From Hypericibacter terrae (lineage in GTDB: Bacteria; Pseudomonadota; Alphaproteobacteria; Dongiales; Dongiaceae), in contig NZ_CP042906.1 of assembly GCF_008728855.1 (NCBI RefSeq), forward strand, positions 2,046,001 to 2,110,000: a stretch of DNA of 64,000 bases, written 5' to 3'. The position numbers were made by a program, and so were the translations under genes. A model generated the notes under the pieces. That model did not search any database. It saw only the letters and a list, made by a program, of their open reading frames with translations, and was not told the origin of the DNA. Each line of letters starts with the position of its first letter. Position 1 is the stretch's first letter. Positions 26,228 through 43,420 of this stretch are shown one piece after another.

Positions 26228-26439
26228 GGGAATCGAGCCTGCCACAGAGAACCCGTCCCCGTCGATTCCCCCGGACGGGCGAGGCGCGGACCGAAGTCCT
26301 TAACCAGCCCCATGACCGGCCGCTATGGAAACCAGAGCGCGGCGGCATTTCCGTGTTGTCCGGGGTTCCGCAATTCTCAAGCCGTTGCCGCGGTGAAGAC
26401 GCCGCCCATTCAGCCAAGAGAAGAAGAGGAGACCTTTCC

Positions 26440-26943
26440 ATGATCATGAACAGCAAGACCAGCCGCGCCGTCTGGCGGGGCCTGGCATTGGCCGGCATTG
26501 TCGCCGGCGCGATGTCGGCGGGCTCGATGTCGGCTTTCGCCGGCAGTTGCCCGGCCGACAAGGTGGTTCCCGCGGGCCAGGGCCAGAAGCCCGGCGCCAC
26601 CATGCCCAAGGACGTGACCGATACGGTCATCGGCTCGATCGACCTGTCGAAGGAGCCGGCGGCGATCAACGATCGCACCTTCCGCCTGCGCAAGCTGGTG
26701 ATCCAGGCCGGCGGCATCGTTCCCTGGCACAGCCACGAAGACCGCCCGGCGATCATCTATATCGTCAGCGGCGAAGTCACCGAATATGCCAGCACCTGCG
26801 CGGTGCCGATCGTCCACAAGAGCGGCGATGTCGCGGTCGAGAGCCACGACACCTCGCATTGGTGGAAGAACACGGGCAAGACCCAGGCCGTGCTCCTCTC
26901 CTCGGACCTGCTCCATGACCCGATGGACGCGAACATGATGTGA
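26440..26943 (+). CDS. Exported cupin-domain protein
   Basis: GAGGAG precedes ATG 26440. The 167-residue product has a signal peptide (VWRGLALAGIVAGAMSAGSMSAFA) and a single cupin barrel: RKLVIQAGGIVPWHSHEDRPAIIYIVSGEVTEY contains the metal-binding pattern G-x5-H-x-H-x4, quoted here in pieces as GGIVPWHSHEDRP and IIYIVSGEVTEY. A second motif has HDTSHWWKNTG with a late histidine. Exported cupins may bind metal or small ligands or act as dioxygenase- or isomerase-like enzymes. The function is not determinable. It precedes an MFS transporter gene by 95 bases. Confidence 0.75.
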   Translation: MIMNSKTSRAVWRGLALAGIVAGAMSAGSMSAFAGSCPADKVVPAGQGQKPGATMPKDVTDTVIGSIDLSKEPAAINDRTFRLRKLVIQAGGIVPWHSHEDRPAIIYIVSGEVTEYASTCAVPIVHKSGDVAVESHDTSHWWKNTGKTQAVLLSSDLLHDPMDANMM

Positions 26944-27038
26944 GGGTCCGCCGATGCGGGACCTATGGGATCGGCTCGTAACGCGGTGGACGCAAGGAGG
27001 CCCGTCACAGCCGATCGCTGCTTTTGCCGGAGCCGAGC

Positions 27039-28271
27039 ATGACCATGATCGCCAAATCCTCGCCGACGCCGATGGCCATGCTGGCGGCGATCGCCGGCCC
27101 GGCCGCCTTCCGGACCTTGATCATCGGCATCGTCGCCTTCCTGACGGTGGTCGATCTCTTCGCCACCCAGGCCATCCTGCCGACCCTGACCCGCGCCTAT
27201 GACGTCAGTCCGGCGGCGATGGGTTTCGCGGTCAATGCCAGCACCATCGGCATGGCGCTGGCCGGCCTCGGCATCGCGCTGGTCAGCCGCCGGATCGACC
27301 GCCGCCGCGGCATCCTGGTCAGCCTGATGCTGCTCTCGATCCCGACGGCGCTGCTGGCGGTGGCGCCGACTCTTGCCGTCTTCACCGGCTTGCGGATCCT
27401 GCAGGGGCTCTGCATGGCCTCGGCCTTCACGCTGACTTTGGCCTATCTGGCGGAGCGCAGCAGCGCCCGGGACGCGGTCGCCGCCTCGGCCGCCTACATC
27501 ACGGGCAATGTCGCCAGCAATCTGTTCGGCCGGCTGTTGTCGGCGGCGGTTGCCGAGCATTGGGGTTTGGCCACGAACTTCTATCTCTTCGCCGCCCTCA
27601 ATCTCCTGGGCGCGCTGCTGGTTGCCGTGAGCCTGCGCCGCGCCGTTCCCATGGAGCGCCCCGCCATGGCGCGTTCGCCGCTGTCGATCTGGACCGAGCA
27701 TCTGCGCAACCGTCCCTTGCGCGCGAGCTTCGGCGTGGGTTTCTGCATCCTCTTCGCCTTCATCGGCACCTTCACCTTCGTCAATTTCGTATTGGTGCGG
27801 GCGCCGCTTGCGATCGGCCCGATGCAGCTGGGTTTCGTCTACTTCGTCTTCCTGCCGGCGATCCTGACGACGCCCTTGGCCGGGCGCGCGGCCCATCGCT
27901 TCGGCACGCGCAAGACTGTGGGCGGTGCCTTGCTCCTCGCTGCCCTCGGTCTGCCCCTGCTGCTGCTGCCGAATATCGTCGCTGTCCTGGTGGGGTTGGC
28001 CCTGATCGGCGTCGGCACCTTCTTCGCGCAAGCCGCCGCCACCGGCTTCATCGGCCGGGCCGCGACCACCGACCGGGGCTCCGCCAGCGGAATCTATCTC
28101 GCCTGTTATTTCGGCGGCGGCCTGGTCGGCACGGCGCTGCTGGGTCAGGTCTTCGACGGGTTGGGGTGGGAAGCCTGCGTCTTCGGCATCGGGATCGCGC
28201 TCGCCGCCGGCATGGCTCTGGCGTTCTGCCTGAAGAAACATTCCAAGCCGGCCGAGGCTCCGGGCGCCTGA
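27039..28271 (+). CDS. MFS transporter
   Basis: A 410-residue membrane protein with about twelve hydrophobic segments and the MFS loop pattern (GIALVSRRIDRRRGILVSLMLL split as GIALVSRRID and RRRGILVSLM) between helices 2 and 3. It resembles drug/metabolite:proton antiporters of the YnfM/AraJ type. ATG 27039 is preferred to the TTG at 27024. The C-terminus is cytoplasmic and basic (FCLKKHSKPAEAPGA). Possible substrates are drugs or metabolites; no neighbour identifies one. A cupin gene lies just upstream on the same strand. Confidence 0.85.
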   Translation: MTMIAKSSPTPMAMLAAIAGPAAFRTLIIGIVAFLTVVDLFATQAILPTLTRAYDVSPAAMGFAVNASTIGMALAGLGIALVSRRIDRRRGILVSLMLLSIPTALLAVAPTLAVFTGLRILQGLCMASAFTLTLAYLAERSSARDAVAASAAYITGNVASNLFGRLLSAAVAEHWGLATNFYLFAALNLLGALLVAVSLRRAVPMERPAMARSPLSIWTEHLRNRPLRASFGVGFCILFAFIGTFTFVNFVLVRAPLAIGPMQLGFVYFVFLPAILTTPLAGRAAHRFGTRKTVGGALLLAALGLPLLLLPNIVAVLVGLALIGVGTFFAQAAATGFIGRAATTDRGSASGIYLACYFGGGLVGTALLGQVFDGLGWEACVFGIGIALAAGMALAFCLKKHSKPAEAPGA

Positions 28272-28340
28272 CCATCGAAGACAAGACGGGCGGCGCTTCA
28301 TCGGCTAGGCTCGGGACTCCTGATCTTCGAGGGGAAGCCG

Positions 28341-29828
28341 ATGCGTCTCGTCATTGCCGCCATGAAGCATGAAACCAACACCTTCTCTCCGGTGCCGACG
28401 CCGCTGGCGCGGTTCGGCAAGGCGGGCGACGAACTGCTCGAAGGGAAAGCGGCCTACAAGGCCCTGAAGGGTACTGGTGCCGGGGTCGCGGCCTTCATCG
28501 ATCTCGCTGAGCAGCATGGCGCCGAGTTCGAGATCGCGATCTCGGCCGAGGCCTGGCCCTCGGGGCCCGTCGAGGACGAGGCCTATGAATATATCTGCAA
28601 CAAGATCTGCCGTGCGGTCGCGAAGGGTTGCGACGCGCTGCTCCTGGATCTCCATGGCGCGATGGTGACGCGCTCGCGTGAGGATGGCGAAGGCGAGCTG
28701 CTGTCGCGGCTGCGGAAGCTGGCACCCCGTTTGCCCATCGGCGTCTCGCTCGACATGCACACCAACTTTTATCCGGCGATCGCCGAGAATGCGACGGTGA
28801 TTGCCGGCTACCAGACCTATCCCCATATCGACACCTACGAGACCTCGATGCGGGCGGCGAAGCCGATCTTCGCCATGCTCAAGGGCGAGGCGCGCCCGAC
28901 CATGGCCTGGGGCAACCGCCCGATGCTGCCGCATGTCATGCGCCAGGGGAGCGACGATTTCCCCAACAGGGATCTCCAGGCGATGGCCCGGCGGATGGAG
29001 CGGGAAGGGGCGCTCTGCGCCACCCTCTTCACCGGCTTCCCCCATGCCGATATCTCGCAGGCCGGCTTGTCGGCCGTGGTGGTGACGAACGACGACCCGG
29101 ACCTGGCCAGGCGTTATCGCGACGAGCTCCTCGATTTCGCCTGGACCCACCGCGAGGCCTTCGTCTATCGCCTCGAACCGCTGGAGGAGTCGCTGGCGCG
29201 GGCCAAGGCCGCGACCGAGTTCCCGGTGGTCCTGCTCGATCACTACGACAATTGCGCCTCGGGCGGCACCATGGACACGATGAAGGTCCTGGGCGCCATC
29301 CTCGATTCAGGGCTGGAGGATGTGGCGGCCTTCGCGATCCATGATCCGGCGGCGGTCAAGACGCTGATCGCGGCCGGTGTCGGCGCCAAGGTCTCGGTTC
29401 CCTTGGGCGGCAAGCTCGACATGCCCTCGATCAAGCGCAAGGGCGAGCCGCGCGAGGTCACGGGCACCGTCAAGCTCATCTCCAACGGGCAGTTCCGCAA
29501 TCGCGGCAAGGCCTGGCACGGGATGCTGATGGATATGGGGACGGCGGTGGTGCTCGATACGGGCAAGGTCGAGATCGTGGTCATCTCGAAACATCTCGAG
29601 CCTTTCGACCTCGGCTGCTTCACGTCGCTGGGGATCGATCCCACGGCGAAGAAATATCTGATGCTGAAGAGCCGGGTCCATTATCGCGCCGGCTTCAAGG
29701 CGATCGCGAAACAGATCATCGAATGCGCCGGCGTCGGCGTGTGCACCTCCGACTATTCCATGCTCGATTTCAAGCATGTGCGCCGGCCGATCTACCCGCT
29801 CGACAACCTGAACGATCCGAACCCGTAG
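28341..29828 (+). CDS. M81-family metallopeptidase (MlrC/microcystinase-C-like)
   Basis: A 495-residue protein of the MlrC family, named for the enzyme that degrades linearised microcystin. Conserved metal-site segments are visible: RLVIAAMKHETNTFSPVPT at the N-terminus, ALLLDLHGAMVTRSREDGEGE and GVSLDMHTNFYPAIAENA, followed by a C-terminal domain with LLDHYDNCASGGTMDTMKVL and YSMLDFKHVRRPIYPLD. Family members are common in soil alphaproteobacteria beside peptide or amino-acid transporters, and most do not act on microcystin. It is probably a cytoplasmic zinc amidohydrolase of unknown substrate. It is the last high-G+C gene before the low-G+C defence-type gene. Confidence 0.88.
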   Translation: MRLVIAAMKHETNTFSPVPTPLARFGKAGDELLEGKAAYKALKGTGAGVAAFIDLAEQHGAEFEIAISAEAWPSGPVEDEAYEYICNKICRAVAKGCDALLLDLHGAMVTRSREDGEGELLSRLRKLAPRLPIGVSLDMHTNFYPAIAENATVIAGYQTYPHIDTYETSMRAAKPIFAMLKGEARPTMAWGNRPMLPHVMRQGSDDFPNRDLQAMARRMEREGALCATLFTGFPHADISQAGLSAVVVTNDDPDLARRYRDELLDFAWTHREAFVYRLEPLEESLARAKAATEFPVVLLDHYDNCASGGTMDTMKVLGAILDSGLEDVAAFAIHDPAAVKTLIAAGVGAKVSVPLGGKLDMPSIKRKGEPREVTGTVKLISNGQFRNRGKAWHGMLMDMGTAVVLDTGKVEIVVISKHLEPFDLGCFTSLGIDPTAKKYLMLKSRVHYRAGFKAIAKQIIECAGVGVCTSDYSMLDFKHVRRPIYPLDNLNDPNP

Positions 29829-29973
29829 GGAAAAGACTGGGCCACTTCGTATTATCAAGAGGCTTTTGCTCAGGAAAATTTCAGATCTGAGTGGCCTTCT
29901 AAGCACTCGATATAGTACGTCAGCGCAGGCTTGGCAGACGCGGAAAAGCATGTCGCACTGGACTAATGGGTGA

Positions 29974-32900
29974 CTAGTGCCGTTCGTAGCTACTCATCTC
30001 ATTGCGCATGTCGTGGAGATTACAGGCGAGATAGGTATCGAAGAGGTCCAGCAGTTCCCGTTCCCGCCCGCTGTCGCCTTCCGTTGCTCGGTAAAGCTCG
30101 ATAAGAAGACGTCCTAGATGATGGCCAGTCATGTAGTGGCCTTGGAGGCCTTCCTTCGTCCAGACCGGGTAGAGCGCCAGTATCCGGTGGAGCATCTCGA
30201 ACGCTAGGTCTGGGTAGCGATCAACACGCTCCTCCAGTGCGCGAACCAAGTCGTCAGAATGCTCTTCAAATGTCGCCGAGCTCAGGTATGCTCTTACAAG
30301 GCTTGACCGATCCGTCTGCCCATCCAGGACTTCGCCCCAGTTCATATGATTAAGCTCGTCCCGCACCACTTTCTCGCGGTCATCAACTAGCACGAAAAGC
30401 CACCGAGCAGCGCGGTCGCCAACTTTGTCTGATGTCAGGTTGCAAGAGCCGCGAAAAGCCGCGACCTGCCGCCGGAGCACATCATTAGCCGCGCTATCGA
30501 GAAACGCGGCACTTGCTGTGTCATCATCCAGCGCATTTCCGGATTCAAGGAAAAGTCCGAGAACCCTCAGTTCCTTGTCCTTGGAGGCAATCAAATGCTG
30601 AACGATATCCGTTGCCTGATCGGGATAGCTGAAGCTGATCCATCGCAGCATGTGGTGTCCGGGTTGAGACCGCATAAACTTTAGATCACGGCTAGCGATC
30701 CGCTTTAGAAGGTCGATCCCCCGTTCGGCATCATGCTTCGCAATGGAGTTTACAGTGTGCATCATGCACATCAAAACAGATACAAGTGGCTCCGCATCGA
30801 CTCGGCGTTCGACAAGCGTCGCGACGTCATCAAAAGTGCTGGGGTCATTCCACAGAACAGTAGCAAGAGCTTCATATGCAGAGCCTCGCTCTTGATTGAT
30901 GCCACTCGCATAAAGATCGCCATTCTCGCTCAGGAGTTCACGCACGGAGTTACGCGGGTCCCGGGAAGGTGTTGTGGTATGCACGGCTGTGTCTGACGCC
31001 GTGCCGAACTCAGCGATCCGAAGCACAAGATCCAGTATTTCAGAGTCAGTCGCCGCACTCGGATGCTTCTGGATAGTCCAGCTGATCGTCCGGTTGAACG
31101 AGTGATCAGGCCACTTGGTGACCGCCTTGATCGCACGCGCGACCAATGACGCCTCAGCGGTACTCTCGCGCACGCCACTCAGAATTGACTCGGCATACTC
31201 GGCGTTCACCGACAGCGGAATCCGTTCCAGCAGGTTGATAAAGCGCTCAGGCTCGTCTTTTGCCCTTGCTTGGAGAACGGAGCCAAGCTGCCGCGCCCCT
31301 CCTATGACCCGCTCCCGTTCGTAGCGGTGGTAGTTGTCGTCGCTATATCGCTCCATCGCCGACAGCCACTGATTATCTGTCATGAAGATCGCCTTGTCTG
31401 GCGGGATCGGCGATTGAACCCAGCCACCTCTTATGCCGTGGGCGTCGGGTAATGGCCCATGCCTAAACTTGCGGTCTAGTTCGTCGAGACGGCGGAGCGC
31501 ACTGAGACTTAAATGTTCCCGGCCAATTGTCGTCAGAATGGCCCTCTCGTCCTCTCCGGAGGAGTTGAGAATACGCATGACGTATCCCTCAGCATGCTTG
31601 AAATCCAGCGTCTCATCAGCCCTCGTGCGAGCGCAATACTTCTTGGCCCAGTCGAGTTCTGGACGATGGGCCATTACGATAGCTTCAATAGCCAAACGAT
31701 TCTTGGGAGAAAGATGAGGGAAAGCGGCTTTGGCGGCCTTGGCAACTGGTGCCCATTGGCCTCCTATCTCGCCGATTTTAAACGCCTGCCTGTTCTGCAT
31801 GAGTGGAAGCAGCCGGTCGCCGAGATGCTCGCCATTCGCTGCTATGGCTATCAAGTGAAGATACAGCGCAACAGAACCAATGGGTTCAATCTTATCTAGA
31901 TAGCCTGACGCTCCCTCTGGATCTCGGGTGGCGAAGCTGGTAAGCGCCTCGGCGAGGAAGCGCACATAGGGCTGGTCGTACTCGCTGAATGGCACCCTAA
32001 TCGTCTGCCGATCTCGTTCCTGATGCCCGACCGCATCACAGTTTCGCCGGAGAGCTTCCGCGAAAGGCGTCACGACCGCATCAAGGAATGCTTGTGGCGC
32101 ATCTTCGACAATTTTCTTCAACCAGTGAGTCGTGCTTTGGCCATCATGAACGTCGTCAAACGGATGGCATTGCGGGAATGCGTTCATCCATCGCTGAAGC
32201 CAGAAAGCGAGTATGCGCGCGCCAAGCTCTTTATTCTTGTGCGTCCAGGCTCCGAGATCGAAGTTCTCAGATAGCTTCTTGGCAACGTCCTTGTCGCTCG
32301 TCGCCGCAACGAGATCGCCATACAGCGTCTCAAGTTCACCAATCGGTCCGTCAGCGTAAAGTCTGTTTAGCCAGGCGATGAGATGAACGCCCCGCTCCGC
32401 ATCGCCAGCCCACCACTTCCGAAGCAGCGCGGCGGCGATACTAGAGTGACGCGGGGCTCCCTTTCGAAGGACTGAGAAGGCAAGGTCCTTGGTCTCATCG
32501 CTCTCATCGATCCATCTTTGCATCAGTCCAGAATTAATGATGAGCGGCAACCAGTCGCGGCCATGCAGAATGAGCCTGGCGAGATTCTTCCGGGTATGTT
32601 CCGTAGTGAACCAGGGCTGAACAATCTCCAGCTCTCCGCATGTCGGCGTGTCCACTTCGGCGAGCCAATGGGCCACCGCGTCCTTGACGATGTAACGTAT
32701 GTCATCGCCGTCCATAACCTGTTTGAGATCAGCGAGATATCTGCGCGTCACCCCCAGATCGCGAAGACGTGAGAAGATTTGGCGAACCTGGGTTCGTCGG
32801 AAAAGGCGCTGCTCGTCGGCTGTTAGCAGGTCATGGACCGACTGCCCGGTAGTGAGAAAGTGACGGGAGAATGTGTGGTCAAAGAAAGACTCGTGGGCAA

Positions 32901-34500
32901 ACTGTAGCTTTCCACCAACCGCACTAATGAGCCCGTGGGAACTCAAAGCATCAACCGAGCCGGGAAAAGCCGCCAGCACCGCTGGCGGCGCTATCAGCTC
33001 CTGATTCTCGCTCATACTCGCGGCTATTGCGCCCAAGGCGGCGTCAGGCGTCCATGAAAGGCCGGCGGCAATAAAATCACGCCCCCGAACTTCCATAAGT
33101 CGGTCGAACAGCCGACCGCTGGAAATCTCGCCTTCCATTTCTTCACCCGCGAGGACGATGCTCGCGAAGAGCTGAAGATTGATTGGGATAGAAAGGATCG
33201 TTCGCTCTCGGATATTGAATTGGCGGTCGGCCAGTCCAAGTCGCACCATTACAGGCGCTACCGCGTCATCCCAACTGAGCGGCCGCATTGTGATCGAGCG
33301 CGTTAGAATATTTTCGGATAGCGGCTTAAGGCGACTATCTCGTTCCAGATCGTAAGAGCGGCAGGCGATGACTACTTTCATCTTCGGGTAAAAATGAGAG
33401 TCGCCCAGCATACGGAACAGCAGCTCACGAATCCGGCCGGATCGTCCGGAGGCCTCGCTGACTGCATCGACCTGATCGATCACCAGTAGGCAGGATTGGT
33501 TTCCGTAGCGGTTACCCAGCAGGCCAACCGGGCTCTCCGCTCGGCCCACAAGGGCTGTGCCGATCTCGCCGACCGCGTGACAGGACAGAAATCGATCAAT
33601 CCGGAAAGCCAAAACCGGACATCCAGTTGCCCGAGCACTCTCAACGATCTTGGCGAGCGCAACGCTTTTTCCGCTCCCAGCGCCGCCAGCCACCACGGTA
33701 AGGTGGTGGCCCTGATCCATCGCCAGCGCCGCAGCCTCATCGACATCCGCGATCGAAATCGCATGGTTGGCAATCCGCGGCGGCAGGGAAGCGAGATAAT
33801 CATCAGTTGCCTCAGAAAACTTACCGTCTAGTCTCGTATCAAGGCGTGCTTTCCAGCCGATCCCAAGCTCATCAATCGCAGCCCGGAAGCCTTCGGTCGT
33901 GATTGTTTGCGTGAGCTTTGATATCAGGAAACGAGACAGACGATCGCGGACCTCCTCTGGGTCAGCCTCAAACAGAAGCGAGGCGGTTCCCGTGAACTCT
34001 CGGAGTATGGAGTAGTCGGATACAGTTTCTACCTGGCACCGCTTGAGCCAATCTAGCTCTGTTTGCGAGTCGATATCCCAAGCTTCGCCCAGTTGCTTTC
34101 GTGTCTCACGATCCGAGTCGGAAAGCCCGTCAATGAAGTCTTTTACGGTCTCTGCGAGATGAGCCTTCTCCAGCAGCGACTTAAACGCAGCGGTGGGGTC
34201 TGCGGAAACAAACACGCAGTGGTTGGACGGATCGACTAGTTTACCGGCGAACGCTTGGATGACACCCTCATTTTTGAGGGCGATCATAGTCCAGCTTCCG
34301 GATGTCCGACGCCGCTTGCACTGATGCCAGAAATTCAGCCCATCTGCAGACAGCCTGAACTCCAAGCCTGTGGAGTTTTCGTTGAAGGGCTCAAGGCGAA
34401 TTTCATCCGCCTCACCCCGCAGCACTTTTAGCGCCTCGATCAGCGTCCAATGCGCTTCGTACTCGTTGCCGAGCTTATCTGCGACGCCTCCAGCCAACAT
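29974..34500 (-). CDS. Large Avs-like protein: predicted Cap4-type nuclease, STAND P-loop NTPase, helical sensor
   Basis: A 1508-residue protein from ATG 34500 (MLAGGVADKLGNEY); TTG 34506 is also in frame. Residues 1-130 look like a Cap4/DUF4297-type PD-(D/E)xK nuclease: IRLEPFNENSTGLEFRL with Glu47 and WHQCKRR with Gln60 and Lys62. A P-loop NTPase follows: Walker A GGAGSGKS (272-279), Walker B LLVIDQVD (338-345) and VVIACRSYD with Arg381, then a winged-helix-like part. The remaining thousand or so residues are predicted helical, without recognisable enzyme motifs. This order matches Avs/STAND anti-phage proteins, in which the C-terminus senses a phage protein and activates the nuclease. The gene is visibly poorer in G+C than its neighbours (about 50-53% in two lines counted), suggesting transfer. 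No partner gene or mobile element is adjacent. Confidence 0.78.
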   Translation of the reverse strand: MLAGGVADKLGNEYEAHWTLIEALKVLRGEADEIRLEPFNENSTGLEFRLSADGLNFWHQCKRRRTSGSWTMIALKNEGVIQAFAGKLVDPSNHCVFVSADPTAAFKSLLEKAHLAETVKDFIDGLSDSDRETRKQLGEAWDIDSQTELDWLKRCQVETVSDYSILREFTGTASLLFEADPEEVRDRLSRFLISKLTQTITTEGFRAAIDELGIGWKARLDTRLDGKFSEATDDYLASLPPRIANHAISIADVDEAAALAMDQGHHLTVVAGGAGSGKSVALAKIVESARATGCPVLAFRIDRFLSCHAVGEIGTALVGRAESPVGLLGNRYGNQSCLLVIDQVDAVSEASGRSGRIRELLFRMLGDSHFYPKMKVVIACRSYDLERDSRLKPLSENILTRSITMRPLSWDDAVAPVMVRLGLADRQFNIRERTILSIPINLQLFASIVLAGEEMEGEISSGRLFDRLMEVRGRDFIAAGLSWTPDAALGAIAASMSENQELIAPPAVLAAFPGSVDALSSHGLISAVGGKLQFAHESFFDHTFSRHFLTTGQSVHDLLTADEQRLFRRTQVRQIFSRLRDLGVTRRYLADLKQVMDGDDIRYIVKDAVAHWLAEVDTPTCGELEIVQPWFTTEHTRKNLARLILHGRDWLPLIINSGLMQRWIDESDETKDLAFSVLRKGAPRHSSIAAALLRKWWAGDAERGVHLIAWLNRLYADGPIGELETLYGDLVAATSDKDVAKKLSENFDLGAWTHKNKELGARILAFWLQRWMNAFPQCHPFDDVHDGQSTTHWLKKIVEDAPQAFLDAVVTPFAEALRRNCDAVGHQERDRQTIRVPFSEYDQPYVRFLAEALTSFATRDPEGASGYLDKIEPIGSVALYLHLIAIAANGEHLGDRLLPLMQNRQAFKIGEIGGQWAPVAKAAKAAFPHLSPKNRLAIEAIVMAHRPELDWAKKYCARTRADETLDFKHAEGYVMRILNSSGEDERAILTTIGREHLSLSALRRLDELDRKFRHGPLPDAHGIRGGWVQSPIPPDKAIFMTDNQWLSAMERYSDDNYHRYERERVIGGARQLGSVLQARAKDEPERFINLLERIPLSVNAEYAESILSGVRESTAEASLVARAIKAVTKWPDHSFNRTISWTIQKHPSAATDSEILDLVLRIAEFGTASDTAVHTTTPSRDPRNSVRELLSENGDLYASGINQERGSAYEALATVLWNDPSTFDDVATLVERRVDAEPLVSVLMCMMHTVNSIAKHDAERGIDLLKRIASRDLKFMRSQPGHHMLRWISFSYPDQATDIVQHLIASKDKELRVLGLFLESGNALDDDTASAAFLDSAANDVLRRQVAAFRGSCNLTSDKVGDRAARWLFVLVDDREKVVRDELNHMNWGEVLDGQTDRSSLVRAYLSSATFEEHSDDLVRALEERVDRYPDLAFEMLHRILALYPVWTKEGLQGHYMTGHHLGRLLIELYRATEGDSGRERELLDLFDTYLACNLHDMRNEMSSYERH

Positions 34501-34869
34501 GGACAAGGTCTACTCTCGTCAACACCCCGACAACCAAAACGGGTCGAGTCTCAAGCATCTTAACCGTCTAAGTGTCGACAATCTATCCGCGAAGGCCCGT
34601 CAACACGCAAGCACTCGGCGAGGCCAGGGTAGAGTAGCCCAGCATAAAGGAGGACTGGGCGGATTCTAGGAGGCAGCAAGGAACATGCGGCACCCCCGTC
34701 AGATTGCTTTAAGAAATTGTTGTTGCATGAATTTGGGTTAGGAAGTTGTCGCGGTTATTCGATTGCCGCTCTCGGTGAAAACAAAGGCTTATGCCGAGGA
34801 TCCAGTAGCTTGGCTGCCAGGTTGAGTTGAGTAAGACGGGAGGAGTGAGGAAGTGGACTCAGGACGGGG
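34501..34869. other. Intergenic region upstream of the Avs-like gene, 369 bp
   Basis: AT-richer than the surrounding genes, continuing the composition of the Avs-like gene, so the transferred segment probably extends to roughly 34.85 kb. It must hold the promoter of the minus-strand gene; I found no convincing -35/-10 pair. No tRNA, terminal repeat or intact open frame was recognised. The DeoR-family gene ends at 34870. Confidence 0.4.
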
Positions 34870-35751
34870 TCAGGGCGCCGCGACCAGCATCTCGACCTTG
34901 GCCTCATCGAGTGCGCGGCGCAGATGGGGCGGGGGTGCCCGGTCGGTGACGATCATGCCGGCATCGCCGAGTGCGCAGATCCGCGCCAGCGCGCGATGAT
35001 CGAATTTGGACCCGTCGCACAGCACGATCACCTGGCGCGCTCGAGCGATGAAGGCGCGCTTCATTTCGGAATCCTCGAGCGCGTAGTCGAAATAGCCGGC
35101 TTCGGTGACGCCCGAGACGCCGAGGAACACGCGGTCGAAATAGTAATCGTTGACCTGGGCAGTGGCCGCCGGGCCGACCACCGCCAGTTCGGCCCCGCGA
35201 AGTTGGCCGCCCAGCAGATAGACCGGGCTCCGGCTGCGGGTGAGGGCGATGGCGGCGCGGAGGTTGTTGGTGAAGACGCGGAGATCGTCGCGAGCGACCA
35301 GCTCCTCTGCGAGGGCCAGGGTCGAGGTGCCGACATCGAGCGCCACGGTTTCGCCGGCGCCGACCAGGCCGGCCGCGGCGCGCGCGATCCGCGCCTTCGC
35401 TGTCGCATTGCGACGGCGGCGCCTTTCGAAGGCCGGCTCTTCCGCATCGTAGGTTTCGCCGCGCGCAGCACTGTCGGATCGGCCGGCTGTGTCGGCGCGC
35501 TCGACCGCCATGGCCATGGCGCCGCCATGGGTGCGGGTCAGAAGCCCGCGCGCTTCCAGTCGCTCCAGATCGCGCCGGATGGTCATGCCGGAGACGCCGA
35601 GCGTAGCGGCGACCTCGGCGACCGAGACGAAGCCGATCCGTTCGACGATCTCGGCAATCCGCGCCTGGCGCGCGCCCGCCAATATCCGGCCCGCCTCGCC
35701 CTCGGTCTGGCGACCCTTCGTCGGAGCCGGCGCGCTTCGCCTCGATGTCAT
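34870..35751 (-). CDS. DeoR/GlpR-family sugar-operon repressor
   Basis: A 293-residue regulator from ATG 35751; the frame is open 11 codons further. After a basic N-terminal extension, the helix-turn-helix reads RIGFVSVAEVAATLGVSG followed by MTIRRDLERLEARGLLTRTHGGA, the defining DeoR signature. The C-terminal effector domain has ETVALDVGTSTLALAEEL, VFTNNLRAAIALT and YLLGGQLRGAELAVVGP, the sugar-phosphate-binding pattern. The domain is interrupted by an Arg-rich stretch (AFERRRRRNATAKARIARAA). It is divergent from the sugar importer operon at 35.9-43.4 kb, which it probably represses until a phosphorylated sugar binds. Confidence 0.9.
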   Translation of the reverse strand: MTSRRSAPAPTKGRQTEGEAGRILAGARQARIAEIVERIGFVSVAEVAATLGVSGMTIRRDLERLEARGLLTRTHGGAMAMAVERADTAGRSDSAARGETYDAEEPAFERRRRRNATAKARIARAAAGLVGAGETVALDVGTSTLALAEELVARDDLRVFTNNLRAAIALTRSRSPVYLLGGQLRGAELAVVGPAATAQVNDYYFDRVFLGVSGVTEAGYFDYALEDSEMKRAFIARARQVIVLCDGSKFDHRALARICALGDAGMIVTDRAPPPHLRRALDEAKVEMLVAAP

Positions 35752-35779
35752 TGGCTTCCATGCCCCCTGGGGCAATTCG

Positions 35780-35800
35780 CACAAATTATAACATATTGTG
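35780..35800. promoter_or_regulatory. Candidate DeoR operator in the divergent promoter region
   Basis: CACAA (35780-35784) and TTGTG (35796-35800) form an inverted repeat around 11 AT-rich bases, 29 bases upstream of the DeoR start. The region 35780-35840 is strongly AT-rich and also contains TTAT-N7-ATAA further right. Assignment rests on position and symmetry only. Confidence 0.4.
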
Positions 35801-35884
35801 GGAGTAGATGTTGTTATTTGTTCGATAATGTGAAAATCTAGGGGTCAGACGGCGGGATGATGGTGCGCGCCGTGGCGGGGATTT

Positions 35885-37000
35885 ATGGCGTCGATCGAAC
35901 TGCGGCATGTCACGAAGCGCTATGGCCACGCGGTTACCGCGGTGCGCGACGTCAGCCTCGAGATTCGCGACGGAGAGTTCATGATCCTGCTGGGGCCTTC
36001 CGGCTGCGGGAAGTCGACGGCGCTGCGCATGATCGCCGGCCTCGAGAGCATCACCGAGGGAGAGATCTATGTCGGCGGCCGTCTCGTCAACGACGTGGCG
36101 CCGCGCGACCGGGACATCGCCGTGGTGTTCCAGAACTACGCGCTCTATCCGCATATGACTGTGGCTGAGAACCTCGCCTTCGGTCTCAAGATGCATGGCC
36201 GGTCCACGGCCGAGATCGGCCCGCAAGTGCAGCGGGTCGCGGCCATGCTGGGGATCGAAGGCTTCCTCGCCCGGAAGCCGGGGGCGCTCTCGGGCGGGCA
36301 GCGCCAGCGCGTGGCGCTGGGCCGGGCGCTGGTCCGCGAGCCTGTGGCGTTTCTGCTCGACGAGCCGCTCTCGAACCTCGATGCGCGGTTGCGGGCGGAT
36401 ATGCGCCTCGAGCTGGTCAAGCTGCATCGGCAGCTCGGCACCACCATCATCCATGTGACGCATGACCAGGTCGAGGCCATGACCATGGGCCAGCGGATCT
36501 GCATCATGAAGGATGGCCAGATGATCCAGGCGGGCGCGCCGCTCGATGTCTATCGCAACCCGGTCAATACCTTCGTCGCCGGATTCCTCGCCAGCCCGCC
36601 GATGAACCTCCTCGAGATGACATTGAGCGCCGGTCCGTCCGGAGCGCCGGTCATGGCGAGCGGCGGCCTTCGTCTGACGGTACCCGACGCCTACGCCCAG
36701 AGCGTCAAGCCCTGGGTCGGCAAGACTGTCATTCTCGGCATCCGATCCGAGGATCTCCACGAGAAGCAGGAGAACGCCGGATGGCAGCCGATCGAAGGCG
36801 ACGTGGTCGCCCTCGAGGCGCTGGGCGCGGAAGTGATCCTGGTGCTGGCGCCGCGAGGGATTCCCGGCAAGGAGATATCGGCCCGGCTCGGCCGAAACTT
36901 TCGCGCCGCCATCGCCAGTAATCAGCGCCTCTTCGTCGACGGCAACGAGATCAGATTGTTCGACCCCGGGACCACAAACGCGATCGCGCGGCGGGCCTAA
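35885..37000 (+). CDS. Sugar ABC importer ATP-binding protein (UgpC/MalK type)
   Basis: A 371-residue ATPase of the carbohydrate-uptake CUT1 type. It has Walker A GPSGCGKSTALRMIAGLE, Q-loop VVFQNYALYPHMTV, signature LSGGQRQRVALGRAL, Walker B VAFLLDEPLSNLDARLR and HVTHDQVEAMTMG, then a C-terminal regulatory OB/TOBE domain of about 130 residues. GGCGGGGATTT precedes the ATG. It opens the operon ATPase, BtpA/SgcQ protein, FGGY kinase, SDR dehydrogenase, permease, binding protein, permease, which reads away from the DeoR gene. Confidence 0.92.
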   Translation: MASIELRHVTKRYGHAVTAVRDVSLEIRDGEFMILLGPSGCGKSTALRMIAGLESITEGEIYVGGRLVNDVAPRDRDIAVVFQNYALYPHMTVAENLAFGLKMHGRSTAEIGPQVQRVAAMLGIEGFLARKPGALSGGQRQRVALGRALVREPVAFLLDEPLSNLDARLRADMRLELVKLHRQLGTTIIHVTHDQVEAMTMGQRICIMKDGQMIQAGAPLDVYRNPVNTFVAGFLASPPMNLLEMTLSAGPSGAPVMASGGLRLTVPDAYAQSVKPWVGKTVILGIRSEDLHEKQENAGWQPIEGDVVALEALGAEVILVLAPRGIPGKEISARLGRNFRAAIASNQRLFVDGNEIRLFDPGTTNAIARRA

Positions 37001-37047
37001 TCCCGGAGACGGGTCCCGGTCCGGCGGAACTTTATGGAGTAGACGTC

Positions 37048-37845
37048 ATGCTCAAGGAAACCTTCGGCAGCCACAAGCCCGTCATCGGCATGGTGCATCT
37101 GCACGCCTTGCCCGGATCGCCGCTCTATGATGCCAAGGGCGGGATCGGTGCCATCATCGACGGGGCCGCCGCCGACATCGAGCGTCTGCAGAAGGGTGGC
37201 GTCGACGCGGTCATGTTCGGCAACGAGAACGACCGGCCCTATCTGCTGAAGGCGACACCGGAGAGCCTGGCGGCCATGGCAGCAGTCATCGGCGCCCTGC
37301 GATCGACGATCAAAATTCCGTTCGGAGCCGATTATCTGTGGGACCCCGTGGCCACAGTGGCGCTCTGTGTCGCGACCCAGGCCCGCTTCGGCCGGGAAAT
37401 CATGACCGGTGTCTTCGAGTCCGACATGGGAACCTGGGAACCCGATTGCGCTGGGGCCCTGCGATTGCGCCATAATCTGGGCCGTGACGACCTGAAGCTG
37501 ATGTTCAACGTCAATGCGGAGTTTGCTTCCTCGGTCGGTACCCGGTCGGTGGCGCAGCGCGCCAAGAGCGCGGTGTTCTCGGCGCTTGCCGATGTGATCC
37601 TGGTGTCGGGGCCGATGACCGGGCAGGCGGCATCGACCAGCGACCTCCGCTCGGCCAAGGAAGCTGTCGGCGATAAGCCGGTCTTCGCCAATACGGGTGT
37701 CAATATCGATACGGTGAAAGAGATCCTCTCGATCGGCGACGGGTGTATCGTCGGCACCCATTTCAAGGTCGACGGCAAGACCTTCAATGCCGTCGATGGC
37801 GATCGTGTGAAGCGTTTCATGGATCTGGTCGGAAAGTCGCGGTAA
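37048..37845 (+). CDS. BtpA/SgcQ-family protein
   Basis: A 265-residue TIM-barrel-like protein. The start KPVIGMVHLHALPGSPLYD is the family signature. KGGVDAVMFGNENDRPYL, NVNAEFASSVGTRSVAQRA, ADVILVSGPMTGQAAS and FANTGVNIDTVKEIL follow, ending with GTHFKVDGK. BtpA is linked to photosystem I stability in cyanobacteria, while SgcQ belongs to a sugar operon in enterobacteria; the latter context fits here. It is probably an enzyme acting on a sugar or sugar phosphate, but no activity can be assigned. It is co-directional with the kinase gene 4 bases downstream. Confidence 0.85.
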   Translation: MLKETFGSHKPVIGMVHLHALPGSPLYDAKGGIGAIIDGAAADIERLQKGGVDAVMFGNENDRPYLLKATPESLAAMAAVIGALRSTIKIPFGADYLWDPVATVALCVATQARFGREIMTGVFESDMGTWEPDCAGALRLRHNLGRDDLKLMFNVNAEFASSVGTRSVAQRAKSAVFSALADVILVSGPMTGQAASTSDLRSAKEAVGDKPVFANTGVNIDTVKEILSIGDGCIVGTHFKVDGKTFNAVDGDRVKRFMDLVGKSR

Positions 37846-37849
37846 CCCG

Positions 37850-39367
37850 ATGGCGGTTCTGCTCGGCCTCGATATCGGCACCACCTCGACGATCGGGATC
37901 CTGATCGACAGCGAGGGCGGGACGCTGGCGACCGCGTCGCGGCCGAGCGAGCTCATCTCGCACCATGCGAGCTGGGCCGAGGAGGATCCCGAGCTCTGGT
38001 GGTCCAATGTCCAGGCGGTCACGGCCGAGCTGCTGGCGCGGACCGGCTTGAAGGGTCGGGACGTCGCAGCCGTGGGTGTCACGGGCATGGTCCCGGCCGT
38101 GGTGCTTCTGGACAGGAATGGCCGGATCCTGCGGCATAGCATTCAGCAGAACGATGCCCGCGCGACCCGCGAGATCGACGCGATGCGCCAGGCCATCGAT
38201 CCCGAGCGCTTCTTCCGCCTGACCGGGGGCAGCATCAACCAGCAGCTGGTGGCGCCGAAGCTGCGATGGCTGGAGCGCCATGAGCCCGAGGTCTTCCGGT
38301 CGATCGCGACCGTGTTCGGTTCTTACGATTTCATCGCCTACCGCCTGACCGGGGCGCGCCATGTGGAGCATAACTGGGCCCTCGAGTCCGGCCTGATGGA
38401 TTTCGGCAAGCGGCGTTTTGCCGAGGAATTGGTGGCGGCGGCGGGTGTCGATCCCGACGTGTTCCCGTCGATCCGCCAATCTCACGAGCTGATCGGAACG
38501 ATCAGCGAGGCTGCGGCCGTCGCTACCGGCCTTGCGGCAGGGACGCCGGTCGTGGCGGGCTGTGCCGACCACGTTGCCTCGGCCTATGTCGCGGGTGCCG
38601 CGGAAGATGGCGATCTCGTGCTCAAATTCGGGGGCGCCGGCGACATCCTGCTGTCGACCGCCAAGCCGGTCACCGATCCGCGCCTCTTCATCGACTATCA
38701 CGTCATTCCCGATCACTATTTCAGCAATGGCTGCACCGCGACCTCCGGCAGCCTGCTCAAATGGATCGTCAGGGAACTGGCGGCGGGCGAGGAGCCCAAG
38801 GCCGCGGCGGCCGGTGTCTCGATCTTCTCCTGGCTCGATCGTCTGGCCGCGGAAGTCCCGGCCGGCGCCGAAGGGCTGGTGCTTTTGCCCTACTTCCTCG
38901 GCGAGAAGACGCCGCTGCATGACCCTTACGCGCGCGGCACCATCGTCGGGCTTGGGCTGCATCATCGCCTGGCCCATATCTGGCGCGCCGCGCTCGAAGG
39001 GGTGATCTTCGGCTTCCGCCACCATGTCGAGGTCTTCACCGAGCGTGGCCTTGCGGTGAAGCGCGTCTTTGCCTGCGACGGCGGGGCCGTCAGCGATCTC
39101 TGGCTGCAGATCGCGGCCGATGCGATCGGTCGGCCGGTGCAGCGGATCGAGCATCATCCGGGCTCCTGTCTGGGTGCTGCCTATGTCGCGGGCGTTGGCG
39201 CGGGCCTGATGAATTCCTTCTCAGGCGTTAGCCGTTATGTGGCCGGAGGGCGCGTGTTCGAACCGCGCCCGGCGCAGACCGCGATCTATGACCGGGCTTA
39301 CGCCAATTTCCGCGAGACCTATGAACGGCTGAAGACGCTTTATCCGAAGCTGGAACGGAATGACTGA
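37850..39367 (+). CDS. FGGY-family carbohydrate kinase
   Basis: A 505-residue kinase of the xylulokinase/gluconokinase group, phosphorylating a sugar or sugar alcohol with ATP. LLGLDIGTTSTIGILID is the N-terminal phosphate-binding loop. GVTGMVPAVVLLDRNGRIL, the substrate-contact region GCADHVASAYVAGAAEDG and the C-terminal FACDGGAVSDLWLQIAAD and GSCLGAAYVAG complete the two-domain fold. It starts 4 bases after the BtpA/SgcQ stop. The product probably serves as the effector sensed by the DeoR regulator. The exact sugar is unknown. Confidence 0.9.
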   Translation: MAVLLGLDIGTTSTIGILIDSEGGTLATASRPSELISHHASWAEEDPELWWSNVQAVTAELLARTGLKGRDVAAVGVTGMVPAVVLLDRNGRILRHSIQQNDARATREIDAMRQAIDPERFFRLTGGSINQQLVAPKLRWLERHEPEVFRSIATVFGSYDFIAYRLTGARHVEHNWALESGLMDFGKRRFAEELVAAAGVDPDVFPSIRQSHELIGTISEAAAVATGLAAGTPVVAGCADHVASAYVAGAAEDGDLVLKFGGAGDILLSTAKPVTDPRLFIDYHVIPDHYFSNGCTATSGSLLKWIVRELAAGEEPKAAAAGVSIFSWLDRLAAEVPAGAEGLVLLPYFLGEKTPLHDPYARGTIVGLGLHHRLAHIWRAALEGVIFGFRHHVEVFTERGLAVKRVFACDGGAVSDLWLQIAADAIGRPVQRIEHHPGSCLGAAYVAGVGAGLMNSFSGVSRYVAGGRVFEPRPAQTAIYDRAYANFRETYERLKTLYPKLERND

Positions 39368-39394
39368 CGGGCTGGGATTGAGGAGACACCGACC

Positions 39395-40177
39395 ATGATC
39401 AACGCCAAGCTGCTCGAAGGCCGTCTCGCCCTGGTGACCGGCGGCGGCTCTGGAATCGGCCGTGCGATCGTGGCGGCGCTCGCGGGCGCTGGCGCCCGGG
39501 TTTTCGTGACCGACAAGAACGGTGAAGCGGCAGCCGCCGTGGCGCGCGAGTTCGACCGCAAGCCGCTCTCGGCCGCCCTCGACGTGACCGACGCGGCCGC
39601 GACCGCCCAAGTCTTCGACGAGGTCTGGAAGCGGCTGGGCGGGCTTGACATCGTCTGCGCCAATGCCGGCATCTCGACCATGAATCAGGTGGTGGATATC
39701 ACCGAGGCCGAATGGGACGCCAATATGGACGTCAACGCCAAGGGCGTGTTCCTGACCAACCAGGCGGCGGTCAGGCGCTGGCGCCAGGCCGATCGGCCGG
39801 GCGTCATCGTCAATACCGCGTCGCTGGCGGCCAAGGTCGGCGCGCCGCTGTTGGCCCACTATTCTGCCAGCAAGTTCGCGGTGCTGGGATTTACCCAGGC
39901 CCTGGCGCGCGAGGTGTCGAAGCATGGCATCCGCGTCAATTGCGTCTGCCCCGGCTTCGTGCGCACCGGCATGCAGGAGCGCGAGATCGTCTGGGAGGCA
40001 AAGCTGCGCGGCATGACGCCCGAGGCCGTGCGCCAGGAATATATCTCGCTGACGCCGCTGGGCCGGATCGAGGAGCCCGAGGATGTGGCCGATATCGTCC
40101 TGTTCCTGGCCAGCGACCTGTCGCGCTTTCTCACGGGCGAGGCGGTCAATGCCAGTGGTGGCGTGTCGATGGATTGA
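39395..40177 (+). CDS. Short-chain dehydrogenase (SDR), sugar/polyol type
   Basis: A 260-residue classical SDR. TGGGSGIG near residues 15-22 is the cofactor motif, VCANAG the NNAG equivalent, and the catalytic set is Asn in NMDVNAKG, Ser in VNTASLAA and Tyr/Lys in HYSASKFAVLG. Asp at the end of the second strand (VFVTDKNG) suggests NAD(H). The C-terminus ends LTGEAVNASGGVSMD as usual. It probably oxidises a polyol or sugar brought in by the surrounding importer. It lies 27 bases after the kinase gene and 45 before the permease gene. Confidence 0.9.
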   Translation: MINAKLLEGRLALVTGGGSGIGRAIVAALAGAGARVFVTDKNGEAAAAVAREFDRKPLSAALDVTDAAATAQVFDEVWKRLGGLDIVCANAGISTMNQVVDITEAEWDANMDVNAKGVFLTNQAAVRRWRQADRPGVIVNTASLAAKVGAPLLAHYSASKFAVLGFTQALAREVSKHGIRVNCVCPGFVRTGMQEREIVWEAKLRGMTPEAVRQEYISLTPLGRIEEPEDVADIVLFLASDLSRFLTGEAVNASGGVSMD

Positions 40178-40222
40178 GGCGGGAAGCAGGATGGTTTCGA
40201 TGAGCAGCGGGATACAGGCGCC

Positions 40223-41029
40223 ATGAAGAAGGGCAGGAATATCGTCCCGCATCTGCTCCTGGTGCTGTTCTCGCTCTATATCCTGCTGCCGCCGCTCTGG
40301 GTGCTGCGCACCAGCTTCGTGCCGGATTCGCTCGCTTACCAGACATCGCTCTTTCCGGGGCTGACGCTCGCCAATTACGTCAAGCTCTTCGCCAAGGACG
40401 ATTTCGCGCTGGCCTATCAGGACAGCTTCATGGCGGCGCTGGGCTCGACCTTGCTGGCCCTGCCGCTGGCGGCGATGACAGGCTATGCCTTCGCGCGCTT
40501 CCGCACGGGCGGGCAGGCGAGCCGGTTCATCGTGCTGGCGACCCAGATGCTGCCGCCGGTCGCGATCGTGCTGCCGGTCTTCGCGATCTTCCGCTTGGCG
40601 GGCCTGACCAACTCGGTGCCGGGCCTGATGATCGCCTATGCCGCCGTCAATCTCCCCTTCCTCACCTGGATCTTGATGGGCTTCTTCGAGGGCGTGCCGG
40701 TCGAGCTGGAATGGGCGGCCATGACCGATGGCGCCACAGCCTGGGGCGCCTTCTGGCGCATCGTGATCCCGGTCTCGCTGCCGGGCCTTGCTGCGGCCGG
40801 CGTGCTGGGCTTCATCCTGGCCTGGAACGAGTTCCTCTTCGCCCTGGTCCTGACCGGCCCGACGACCGCCACGATCCCGGTCGCGCTCTCAGGGCTTCAA
40901 TCGCAGAACGGCGTGCAGATCGCCGAGGTGTCGGCCGGCGTGGTGCTGGGCGTGGCGCCGCTGCTGATCGCTTCGCGCTTCATCCAGAGATATCTCGTCA
41001 GCGGATTGACCTTTGGCGCGATCAAGTAA
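40223..41029 (+). CDS. Sugar ABC importer permease, MalG/UgpE type
   Basis: A 268-residue inner-membrane protein with about six hydrophobic spans. It contains LAALPLAAMTGYAFARF-like sequence early (written LALPLAAMTGYAFARFRTGG in the protein), and the EAA loop reads VELEWAAMTDGATAWGAFWR followed by IVIPVSLPGLAA. It ends VSGLTFGAIK, typical of the MalG group. The partner permease of MalF type is not adjacent but lies after the binding-protein gene at 42491, an order reversed from the usual binding protein, MalF, MalG. Confidence 0.88.
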   Translation: MKKGRNIVPHLLLVLFSLYILLPPLWVLRTSFVPDSLAYQTSLFPGLTLANYVKLFAKDDFALAYQDSFMAALGSTLLALPLAAMTGYAFARFRTGGQASRFIVLATQMLPPVAIVLPVFAIFRLAGLTNSVPGLMIAYAAVNLPFLTWILMGFFEGVPVELEWAAMTDGATAWGAFWRIVIPVSLPGLAAAGVLGFILAWNEFLFALVLTGPTTATIPVALSGLQSQNGVQIAEVSAGVVLGVAPLLIASRFIQRYLVSGLTFGAIK

Positions 41030-41131
41030 GGGAGCGTTCGTACCAACACCATTACCGGCCCAGATCCAAGCCCGGCGGAACCAAGCCGGGTACAACGAGA
41101 GTCGATCGATCAGACACAAGGGAGGATACCC

Positions 41132-42424
41132 ATGAGGTTCAGACATTTGACGGCCTGGCTCGGCGGCATTTCGCTCGCCGCGCTCATGACGACGGGAACG
41201 ACGGTCGCCCATGCCGACCAGATCACGCTCCATGCCTTGATGGAGGACGTGCCGGAGACGCAGATCATCGAGGCGATGCTGCCGCAGTTCGAGAAGGACA
41301 CCGGCATCAAGGTCGAGTTCCAGAAGCTGGTCTATTCGGAGATGCACGACAAGCTGGTGACGCAGCTCACCGGCAGCAGCAGCTACTACAATGTGCTCGA
41401 GGTCGATTTTCTCTGGGCCGGCGAGTTTCCCGAAGCCGGCTGGCTCGCCGACCTGAAGCCCTTCGTCGACAAGAGCGGCTTCGATCTCAAGCCCTTCTTC
41501 CCCTCCATGCTCGATCTGGTCGGGAACCATAAGGGCACGCTCTATATGATCCCCATGTACAACTACTCGATGGGGCTCATCTATCGCACCGACCTGCTGG
41601 CCGATGCGAAGCTGGCGGCGGCCTACAAGACCGCGACCGGCAAGGACCTCGCTCTGCCGACCTCGCTCGCCGACTATGTGGCGCTCAGCAAGTTCATGAA
41701 AGCCAGTGGCGGCGTCGCCGGGTCGGCGATGCAGGGCCAGCGTGGCGACCCCAACAGCATGGAGTTCTCGAACTATCTCTTCTCCGCCGGCGGTGCCTAT
41801 CTCGACAAGGACCGCAAGGTGGTGCTGAACAGCCCCGAGGGCCTGAAGGCGCTCGAACTCTATGTCGACAACATCAAGAATGGCGCCCAGCAGGGCGCGC
41901 TCTCGGCCACGCTCGACGACACCTACCGCCTGATGTGCGACGGCAAGGCCTTCAGCATGGTCACCTATTGGTGGATGCTGCCGCAGCTCGACAACAAGGA
42001 GAAATGCCCCAACGTCGCCGGCAAGGTGGCGCTCGCGGTGATGCCGGGCGGGCATGGCGAAAGCGGCGGCTGGGGCTGGGCCATTCCGAAGAACGAGAGT
42101 CCCGAGCTGCAGGAAGCGGCGTGGAAGTTCATCAGCTGGGTCCAGGGCGAGAAGATCTCGATCGCCCGCGCCCTCGAGGGTCATGCGCCGGTCCGCAGCG
42201 ACACCTATGAGAACAAGGACGTGCTCGCGAAGTTCCCCTTCTATAAGCAGGCGCTGGACGTGGTGGCGAGCGGGGATGCCTTCCCGATCTTCGCCTATTC
42301 GGCGCAATACGAGGATGTGCTGGGCCGTCAGCTCTCGCTGGCGGGCTCGGGCGAGTCCAAGCCGGCCGATGCGCTCAAGGAAGCGGCGGATGGGCTGGAC
42401 GGCCTGATGAAGAAAGCGCAGTAG
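41132..42424 (+). CDS. Periplasmic sugar-binding protein of the DeoR-linked importer
   Basis: A 430-residue extracellular solute-binding protein, cluster of maltose/glycerol-3-phosphate-type proteins. GGGAGGATACCC precedes the ATG. The signal peptide (LGGISLAALMTTGTTVAHA) is cleaved near residue 28. The mature protein begins DQITLHALMEDVPETQII and has EKDTGIKVEFQKLVYSEMHD, YMIPMYNYSMGLIYRTDLL and GWGWAIPKNESPELQEAAWK, typical of the family. A terminator-like hairpin lies 13 bases after its stop. The ligand is a carbohydrate by family, not identified. Confidence 0.88.
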   Translation: MRFRHLTAWLGGISLAALMTTGTTVAHADQITLHALMEDVPETQIIEAMLPQFEKDTGIKVEFQKLVYSEMHDKLVTQLTGSSSYYNVLEVDFLWAGEFPEAGWLADLKPFVDKSGFDLKPFFPSMLDLVGNHKGTLYMIPMYNYSMGLIYRTDLLADAKLAAAYKTATGKDLALPTSLADYVALSKFMKASGGVAGSAMQGQRGDPNSMEFSNYLFSAGGAYLDKDRKVVLNSPEGLKALELYVDNIKNGAQQGALSATLDDTYRLMCDGKAFSMVTYWWMLPQLDNKEKCPNVAGKVALAVMPGGHGESGGWGWAIPKNESPELQEAAWKFISWVQGEKISIARALEGHAPVRSDTYENKDVLAKFPFYKQALDVVASGDAFPIFAYSAQYEDVLGRQLSLAGSGESKPADALKEAADGLDGLMKKAQ

Positions 42425-42437
42425 CGACCCCGGGTGC

Positions 42438-42475
42438 CGGCGGAGTCCCGTTTTGGGCCTCCGCCGATACCTTCA
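42438..42475 (+). terminator. Intra-operon hairpin after the binding-protein gene
   Basis: CGGCGGAG (42438-42445) pairs with CTCCGCCG (42459-42466); inside, CCC and GGG pair across a GTTTT loop. ATACCTTCATT follows. It lies between the binding-protein stop and the MalF-type permease start at 42491, as in the other importers here. Confidence 0.7.
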
Positions 42476-42490
42476 TTCCCGAAGGACTCC

Positions 42491-43396: not shown

Positions 43397-43420
43397 CGGT
43401 GGCGATCGTCTGGCCTCCGG

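Follow-up and report, generated by a model that had tools for sequence, protein, structure and literature searches.

A solitary gene of Hypericibacter terrae, apparently acquired horizontally, encodes a predicted nuclease-STAND protein and is a candidate for anti-phage defence

The window analysed here is a 64,000-nucleotide stretch of Hypericibacter terrae DNA (contig NZ_CP042906.1, positions 2,046,001 to 2,110,000), and within it we considered one long gene whose features are collected in Table 1. The open reading frame covers 29974-34506 on the minus strand when read from a TTG (1510 residues), and an in-frame ATG at 34500 gives an intact frame of 1508 codons. This start is backed by an equivalent methionine start in three relatives (L003, L005 and L006), confirming the 1508-residue gene of the original prediction. 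The motifs quoted in that prediction (E47, Q60-x-K62, GGAGSGKS at 272-279, LLVIDQVD at 338-345 and R381) all lie at the residues given, and their conservation across the family exceeds chance in the sequences compared, with 23 positions, E15, E37, H59, Q60 and K62 among them, being invariant in all eight members of the N-terminal family. Relative to the nearest copy (L002, from Mesorhizobium, 73% identical), the gene has a dN/dS of 0.086, and the values by region are 0.041 for residues 1-215, 0.09 for residues 216-640 and 0.079 for residues 641-1508, all with dS near saturation. Purifying selection of this kind supports a working gene. Promoter and terminator scans of the window gave counts no higher than chance, NCBIfam and PHROGs offered no family for the protein at E up to 1 and up to 0.01, respectively, and Rfam returned nothing at gathering scores across window positions 28000-37000.

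Table 1. Features of the gene and of the segment that carries it (window coordinates)
Feature	Position	Strand	Basis or remark
Whole gene, nuclease-STAND-helical C-terminus protein	29974..34500	(-)	1508 aa from ATG 34500
N-terminal domain, residues 1-215, predicted Cap4-type PD-(D/E)xK nuclease	33856..34500	(-)	Conservation, profile comparisons
Glu47, possible catalytic acid	34360..34362	(-)	E in 7/8 members, D in 1/8
His59-Gln60-Cys61-Lys62, QxK motif	34315..34326	(-)	H, Q and K invariant in 8/8 members
STAND/NACHT-type NTPase, about residues 216-430	33211..33855	(-)	Pfam NACHT
Walker A, GGAGSGKS, residues 272-279	33664..33687	(-)	Sequence motif
Walker B, LLVIDQVD, residues 338-345	33466..33489	(-)	Sequence motif, D342 and D345 invariant
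CRSYD, residues 380-384, invariant Arg381	33349..33363	(-)	Conservation
Post-NTPase region, residues 431-640	32581..33210	(-)	Holds FAHESFFDH (invariant His536) and LFRRTQVRQI
C-terminal region, residues 641-1508, presumed sensor	29977..32580	(-)	All-helical in low-confidence model
Segment without counterpart in congeneric genome G014	29820..34876	.	67 bp in G014

Of nine neighbouring genes scanned against Pfam, eight fall into families of metabolism, transport or regulation and one has no match; the window is not itself a defence island, and it contains no tRNA gene. The G+C content is 0.56-0.57 over the gene against about 0.65 around it, and the gene's GC3 of 0.61 is the lowest among the reading frames kept by a GC3-weighted pick, a filter which favours high GC3. 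The M81 and DeoR orthologues of the congeneric genome G014, whose M81 protein is 92% identical to that of the window, lie 67 bp apart, against 5,057 bp in the window. Taken together, the low G+C and this empty site indicate that the gene was acquired horizontally. No convincing target-site duplication or inverted repeats were found at the window insertion, and the window unit and L002 are alike in DNA only over the coding sequence, apart from chance-level matches. Three other stretches of the window (26270-28299, 35707-37057 and 39352-43440) are also without aligned DNA in the G014 stretch compared, which suggests that the whole region is variable. The Rhizobium phaseoli copy of the gene likewise lies near an M81 metallopeptidase gene, but in the other orientation and with a gene between, and we take this as coincidence; the window's genome holds four M81 matches.

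A PD-(D/E)xK, Cap4-like N-terminus had been claimed for this protein, and both a profile match and the motif residues invariant throughout the family support it. Compared profile to profile with PF14130 (Cap4_nuclease) loci, the N-terminal family gave a probability of 72 and a score of 38.5 over 70 columns, in which G-x-Y, E37, QxK and WT are aligned and shared. The Cap4 side of this comparison (alignment A7) was built from six of the eight PF14130 loci from 398 genomes, L039 and L040 being omitted. As controls, all 200 column shuffles scored 22.7 or less, the reversed alignment scored 14.4, and the NTPase region reached a probability of 0.2 and a score of 15.6. Where the profile-profile comparison was positive, HMMER was not: the window protein falls below its detection, PF14130 being absent from the protein's 12 Pfam families, none of which spans the N-terminal 215 residues, and from the 25 listed of the 26 Pfam families in six members. 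A PF14130 search of 143 genomes that gave no match, even in its control genomes, is set aside. E47 sits beside a gap in the Cap4 comparison, unaligned with the Cap4 Asp; it is aligned with an Asp of a solved protein, PDB 9n00, which the N-terminal domain alone finds at E 1e-5 and which also has the QxK motif. The N-terminal profile is also matched, at a probability of 94, by a further group of nuclease-like STAND proteins (L010 and L011); set against PF14130 members, these two reach a probability of 6.7, which is not significant. Structure prediction took the window and L002 sequences as its only input, and the resulting model of the N-terminal 640 residues was unusable (mean pLDDT 35.9), with Foldseek returning nothing at E up to 0.001. 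From its sequence, the N-terminus resembles Cap4-type nucleases, and we regard it as a predicted nuclease.

The P-loop STAND NTPase of the original prediction is borne out, since Pfam NACHT (PF05729) scores 29.4 bits against a cut-off of 26.7 over residues 269-416 (in the 1510-residue numbering); with an E-value limit of 1, five of six members match the same family. Invariant in all seven full-length members are D342, D345, R381 and, within Walker A, six of eight residues (K278 and S279 among them); we presume that R381 has a sensor-1-like role. The FAHESFFDH region that follows may be winged-helix-like.

The C-terminal region of about 870 residues is probably helical. Its model (948 residues) is all-helical, as had been claimed, but with a mean pLDDT of 51.3 it is of low confidence and resolves nothing beyond this description. 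Foldseek with the model drew HEAT-repeat proteins (CAND1, exportin and importin beta) at TM scores up to about 0.3. Among six members, Pfam finds HEAT_2 in two (best E 4.8e-4) and HEAT and HEAT_EZ in one each; it finds no HEAT family in the window protein. The profile of these 868 residues matches no solved chain at E up to 10, in agreement with the earlier statement that the C-terminus has no recognised family, and at sequence level no Avs model is matched at E up to 0.1. A match to OloA (Olokun) in this region (E 5e-4) occurred in one of eight members and is taken as chance.

The protein therefore has the three-part layout of nuclease, STAND NTPase and sensor that had been proposed for it, with the helicity of the last part of low confidence and its sensing role presumed. 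Avs2 to Avs4 carry fused nucleases. The window protein had been called Avs-like, and its membership of Avs is not supported: the only PADLOC Avs models matched are two for Avs2 (E 0.013 and 0.028), over about 120 residues of the NTPase, the best Avs2 value in any of six members is E 0.0015, and none of the Avs1 to Avs5 profiles matches over the whole length. By profile, then, the protein is not a member of Avs1-5. It is like Avs (AVAST) proteins in its layout of an N-terminal effector, a STAND NTPase and a C-terminal sensor (PMC12931631) and unlike them in a C-terminus that no Avs model recognises. The Avs1 system studied in PMC12799240 has a separate nuclease and protease, and so Avs1 is not a layout match.

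The clade 6 proteins bNACHT25 and bNACHT32 also join a PD-(D/E)xK DNase to a NACHT module in one phage-defence protein (PMC12169576), a likeness drawn by description rather than by sequence alignment. Of the NCH1 and SNaCT C-terminal domains of defined bNACHT clades, neither is among the 12 Pfam hits of the window protein, although Pfam may not hold these models. Defence and DNA degradation by bNACHT25 both depend on its nuclease residue D48, and an H506L change in its NACHT module gives a hyperactive protein (PMC12169576). Judged by position and context, not by alignment, E47 and H536 (in FAHESFFDH) could be the counterparts of D48 and H506. The nearest solved protein is PDB 9n00 (also 9n01 and 9yix), an 'AAA family ATPase' of 1523 residues, which the family profile finds over positions 49-641 at E 1.3e-36. 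It is of similar length to the window protein and homologous over the nuclease and NTPase, whereas the C-terminal profile of the family alone does not find it at E up to 10, the C-terminus showing a weak patch near 998-1121 (i-E 1.1). Searching the literature for 9N00 and 9N01 yielded no paper, and neither fold searches nor a protein search of plasmids and phages provided the identity of 9n00. The best PADLOC match of the window protein is the candidate PDC-M54A (E 1.2e-9), two models of which match six of six and five of six members; its best stretch spans only residues 271-396, and our literature search found no paper naming it.

Relatives of the gene are few and scattered. The nearest, in Mesorhizobium sp. 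WSM3626 (L002), has its 73% identity over the full length. Identities of 30-32% are found for copies on plasmids of Rhizobium phaseoli (L005) and Sinorhizobium numidicum (L006; a second plasmid record, H3, with the same protein is counted once) and in genomes G025 (L003) and G569 (L009), and of 23% for a planctomycete plasmid copy (L007). The copy in G1048 (L013) was measured by region only: over the first 215 residues it is 34% identical, and over the last 868 it is 28% identical. The family occurs in 3 of 385 genomes of the class at E up to 1e-10 (including the window's own and one partial match), in 4 of 398 of the phylum at E up to 1e-20 (including its own and two partial, distant matches) and in 3 of 394 of the taxonomic family of G569 (one partial), these three samples overlapping. 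Within the window's own taxonomic family it is found in 1 of 17 genomes, which is its own, and an order search returned the same 17. Phage records held no relative, and viral-collection contigs held one, a truncated copy. On these samples the family is rare, and its patchy distribution is not that of universally present housekeeping genes, which would have spoken against the original prediction.

A survey of the genomic settings gave a divided answer on association with defence islands, with the relatives pointing towards mobile DNA and defence genes and the window copy lying among metabolic, transport and regulatory genes. For six of the seven full-length relatives the setting is a plasmid or the neighbourhood of an integrase or tRNA gene. 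The Sinorhizobium copy is on a conjugative plasmid (PLSDB typing) with an integrase next door, and it adjoins annotated multiubiquitin, ThiF (DUF6791) and DUF6527 genes (L006 8866-10887). These look like a Ub-like conjugation module; the ThiF gene gives weak E1-E2 matches and the multiubiquitin gene is not recognised by PADLOC. The planctomycete copy adjoins the replication initiator of a 34-kb plasmid. The copy in G569 has a MobA/L relaxase about 1 kb away and an integrase, beside tRNA-Phe, about 4 kb away, and that in G025 has a HipA kinase at about 1.3 kb and integrases at a greater distance. The Rhizobium plasmid copy has annotated metabolic neighbours and a tRNA-like remnant, the G1048 copy has tRNA-Leu with the remaining neighbours metabolic by eye, and L002 has a transporter permease on one side, the rest again being metabolic by eye. 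The truncated copy on the viral-collection contig (L012 5717-8342; N-terminal, 41% over about 44 residues) directly follows Hachiman HamB (E 1.7e-235); TIR and reverse-transcriptase genes lie no more than about 7 kb away. A more distant relative (L033) is next to a gene annotated as an integrase and to a DUF262 gene that matches HEC-05 of PADLOC.

The family gene of G1048 is preceded by an intact tRNA-Leu(TAA) that ends 125 bp away (L019 14671-14882, L019 being a longer stretch of this genome), and upstream of position 12001 both the Rhizobium and Sinorhizobium plasmid copies have sequence that by eye is like the 3' end of this tRNA. ARAGORN and Rfam called no tRNA there, and we read the sequence as a putative attachment-site remnant. 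The window is without a tRNA gene, and the link to tRNA-Leu is shown for some relatives. These three close relatives (L005, L006 and L019) share the gene, about 180-208 bp before it and no more than 56 bp after it, and because only the gene and about 200 bp are common to them a one-gene system is likely. The single-gene system originally claimed is in this way supported, with no conserved partner gene seen among the relatives compared.

Nuclease-STAND proteins are the bacterial counterparts of the NLR immune receptors of animals and plants. We consider it probable (roughly 80%) that the window gene is a horizontally acquired, single-gene system encoding a candidate anti-phage alarm protein, and as such it is a new, rare relative of phage-defence proteins already known. 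By analogy, the most likely mode of action of the protein is that of bNACHT25 or of Avs proteins with a fused nuclease, namely to sense infection and abort it by cutting DNA. The helical C-terminal region would bind a phage-derived (or phage-altered host) molecule, upon which the NACHT/STAND NTPase would bind or exchange ATP and oligomerise; this would bring the N-terminal Cap4-type nuclease domains together, and by cutting DNA these would kill the infected cell, or arrest it, before phage could be released. The steps of binding a ligand, oligomerising, cutting DNA and aborting the infection are here carried over from studied relatives, whose shared plan is described as C-terminal sensing, central NTPase oligomerisation and an N-terminal effector (PMC12931631, PMC12169576), the known nuclease-STAND proteins acting in this sense-oligomerise-cut manner (PMC12169576, PMC12931631). 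Of 31 further validated E. coli systems described in PMC13092281, 13 have PD-(D/E)XK nuclease domains and 7 have P-loop NTPases, and domains of this sort are thus common among defence systems. Counting against the alarm-protein reading are the want of a PF14130 match by HMMER, the metabolic look of the genes around L002, L005 and the window copy, the position of E47 out of line with the Cap4 Asp, the low probability of L010 and L011 against PF14130, and the phage records, in which no relative was found. A more specific proposal, which we hold tentatively and lean slightly against, is that the family forms a separate nuclease-STAND lineage distinct from Avs1-5, whose helical C-terminus of about 870 residues senses a trigger unlike terminase or portal, carried as one-gene cargo at tRNA-Leu and other sites.

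The same architecture might instead be directed mainly at plasmids and other mobile DNA entering the cell, or aid the persistence of its own carrier, rather than act against phage. Three relatives on plasmids and three near tRNA genes or integrases would suit this reading, which we nonetheless think unlikely given the company of Hachiman HamB, TIR and reverse-transcriptase genes kept by the truncated copy, and given that no carrier-element gene is found among the scanned neighbours of the window copy. Appreciably less probable still is that the protein is a STAND regulator of physiology, in stress or development, whose PD-(D/E)xK-like domain lacks catalytic activity or serves only to bind nucleic acid. 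Nuclease activity is predicted from sequence, HMMER does not recognise the nuclease family and E47 is only a candidate for the catalytic acid, all of which would leave room for such a regulator; yet the invariance of H59, Q60, K62, E37 and E15 in all eight members speaks against it, and a patchy distribution with an empty site is unlike that of a housekeeping regulator. That the gene is a decayed or cryptic acquisition without present function seems to us very improbable: it is solitary and low in G+C, and promoter-like sites occur at chance level only, but the frame of 1508 codons is intact and dN/dS is low in all three regions, allowing for dS near saturation.

If the alarm-protein reading is right, this rare family, with a C-terminus that matches no solved chain, would add a receptor whose ligand can be sought. 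That the gene stands alone in the window and is linked to tRNA-Leu in some relatives also indicates that island-based searches can miss one-gene defences, a limit of co-localisation that is stated in PMC13092281. Beyond the family itself, two NTPase relatives (L021 10710-15917, 1735 residues; L022 9509-14779, 1756 residues) carry an N-terminal PNP phosphorylase domain, which suggests effector swapping, as expected of STAND receptors, and favours the alarm-protein reading. On a Tolypothrix plasmid (L034 1556-13029), a protein annotated as caspase-family has an NTPase like that of 9n00, its gene lying between one for a trypsin-like peptidase and a further one of the caspase family.
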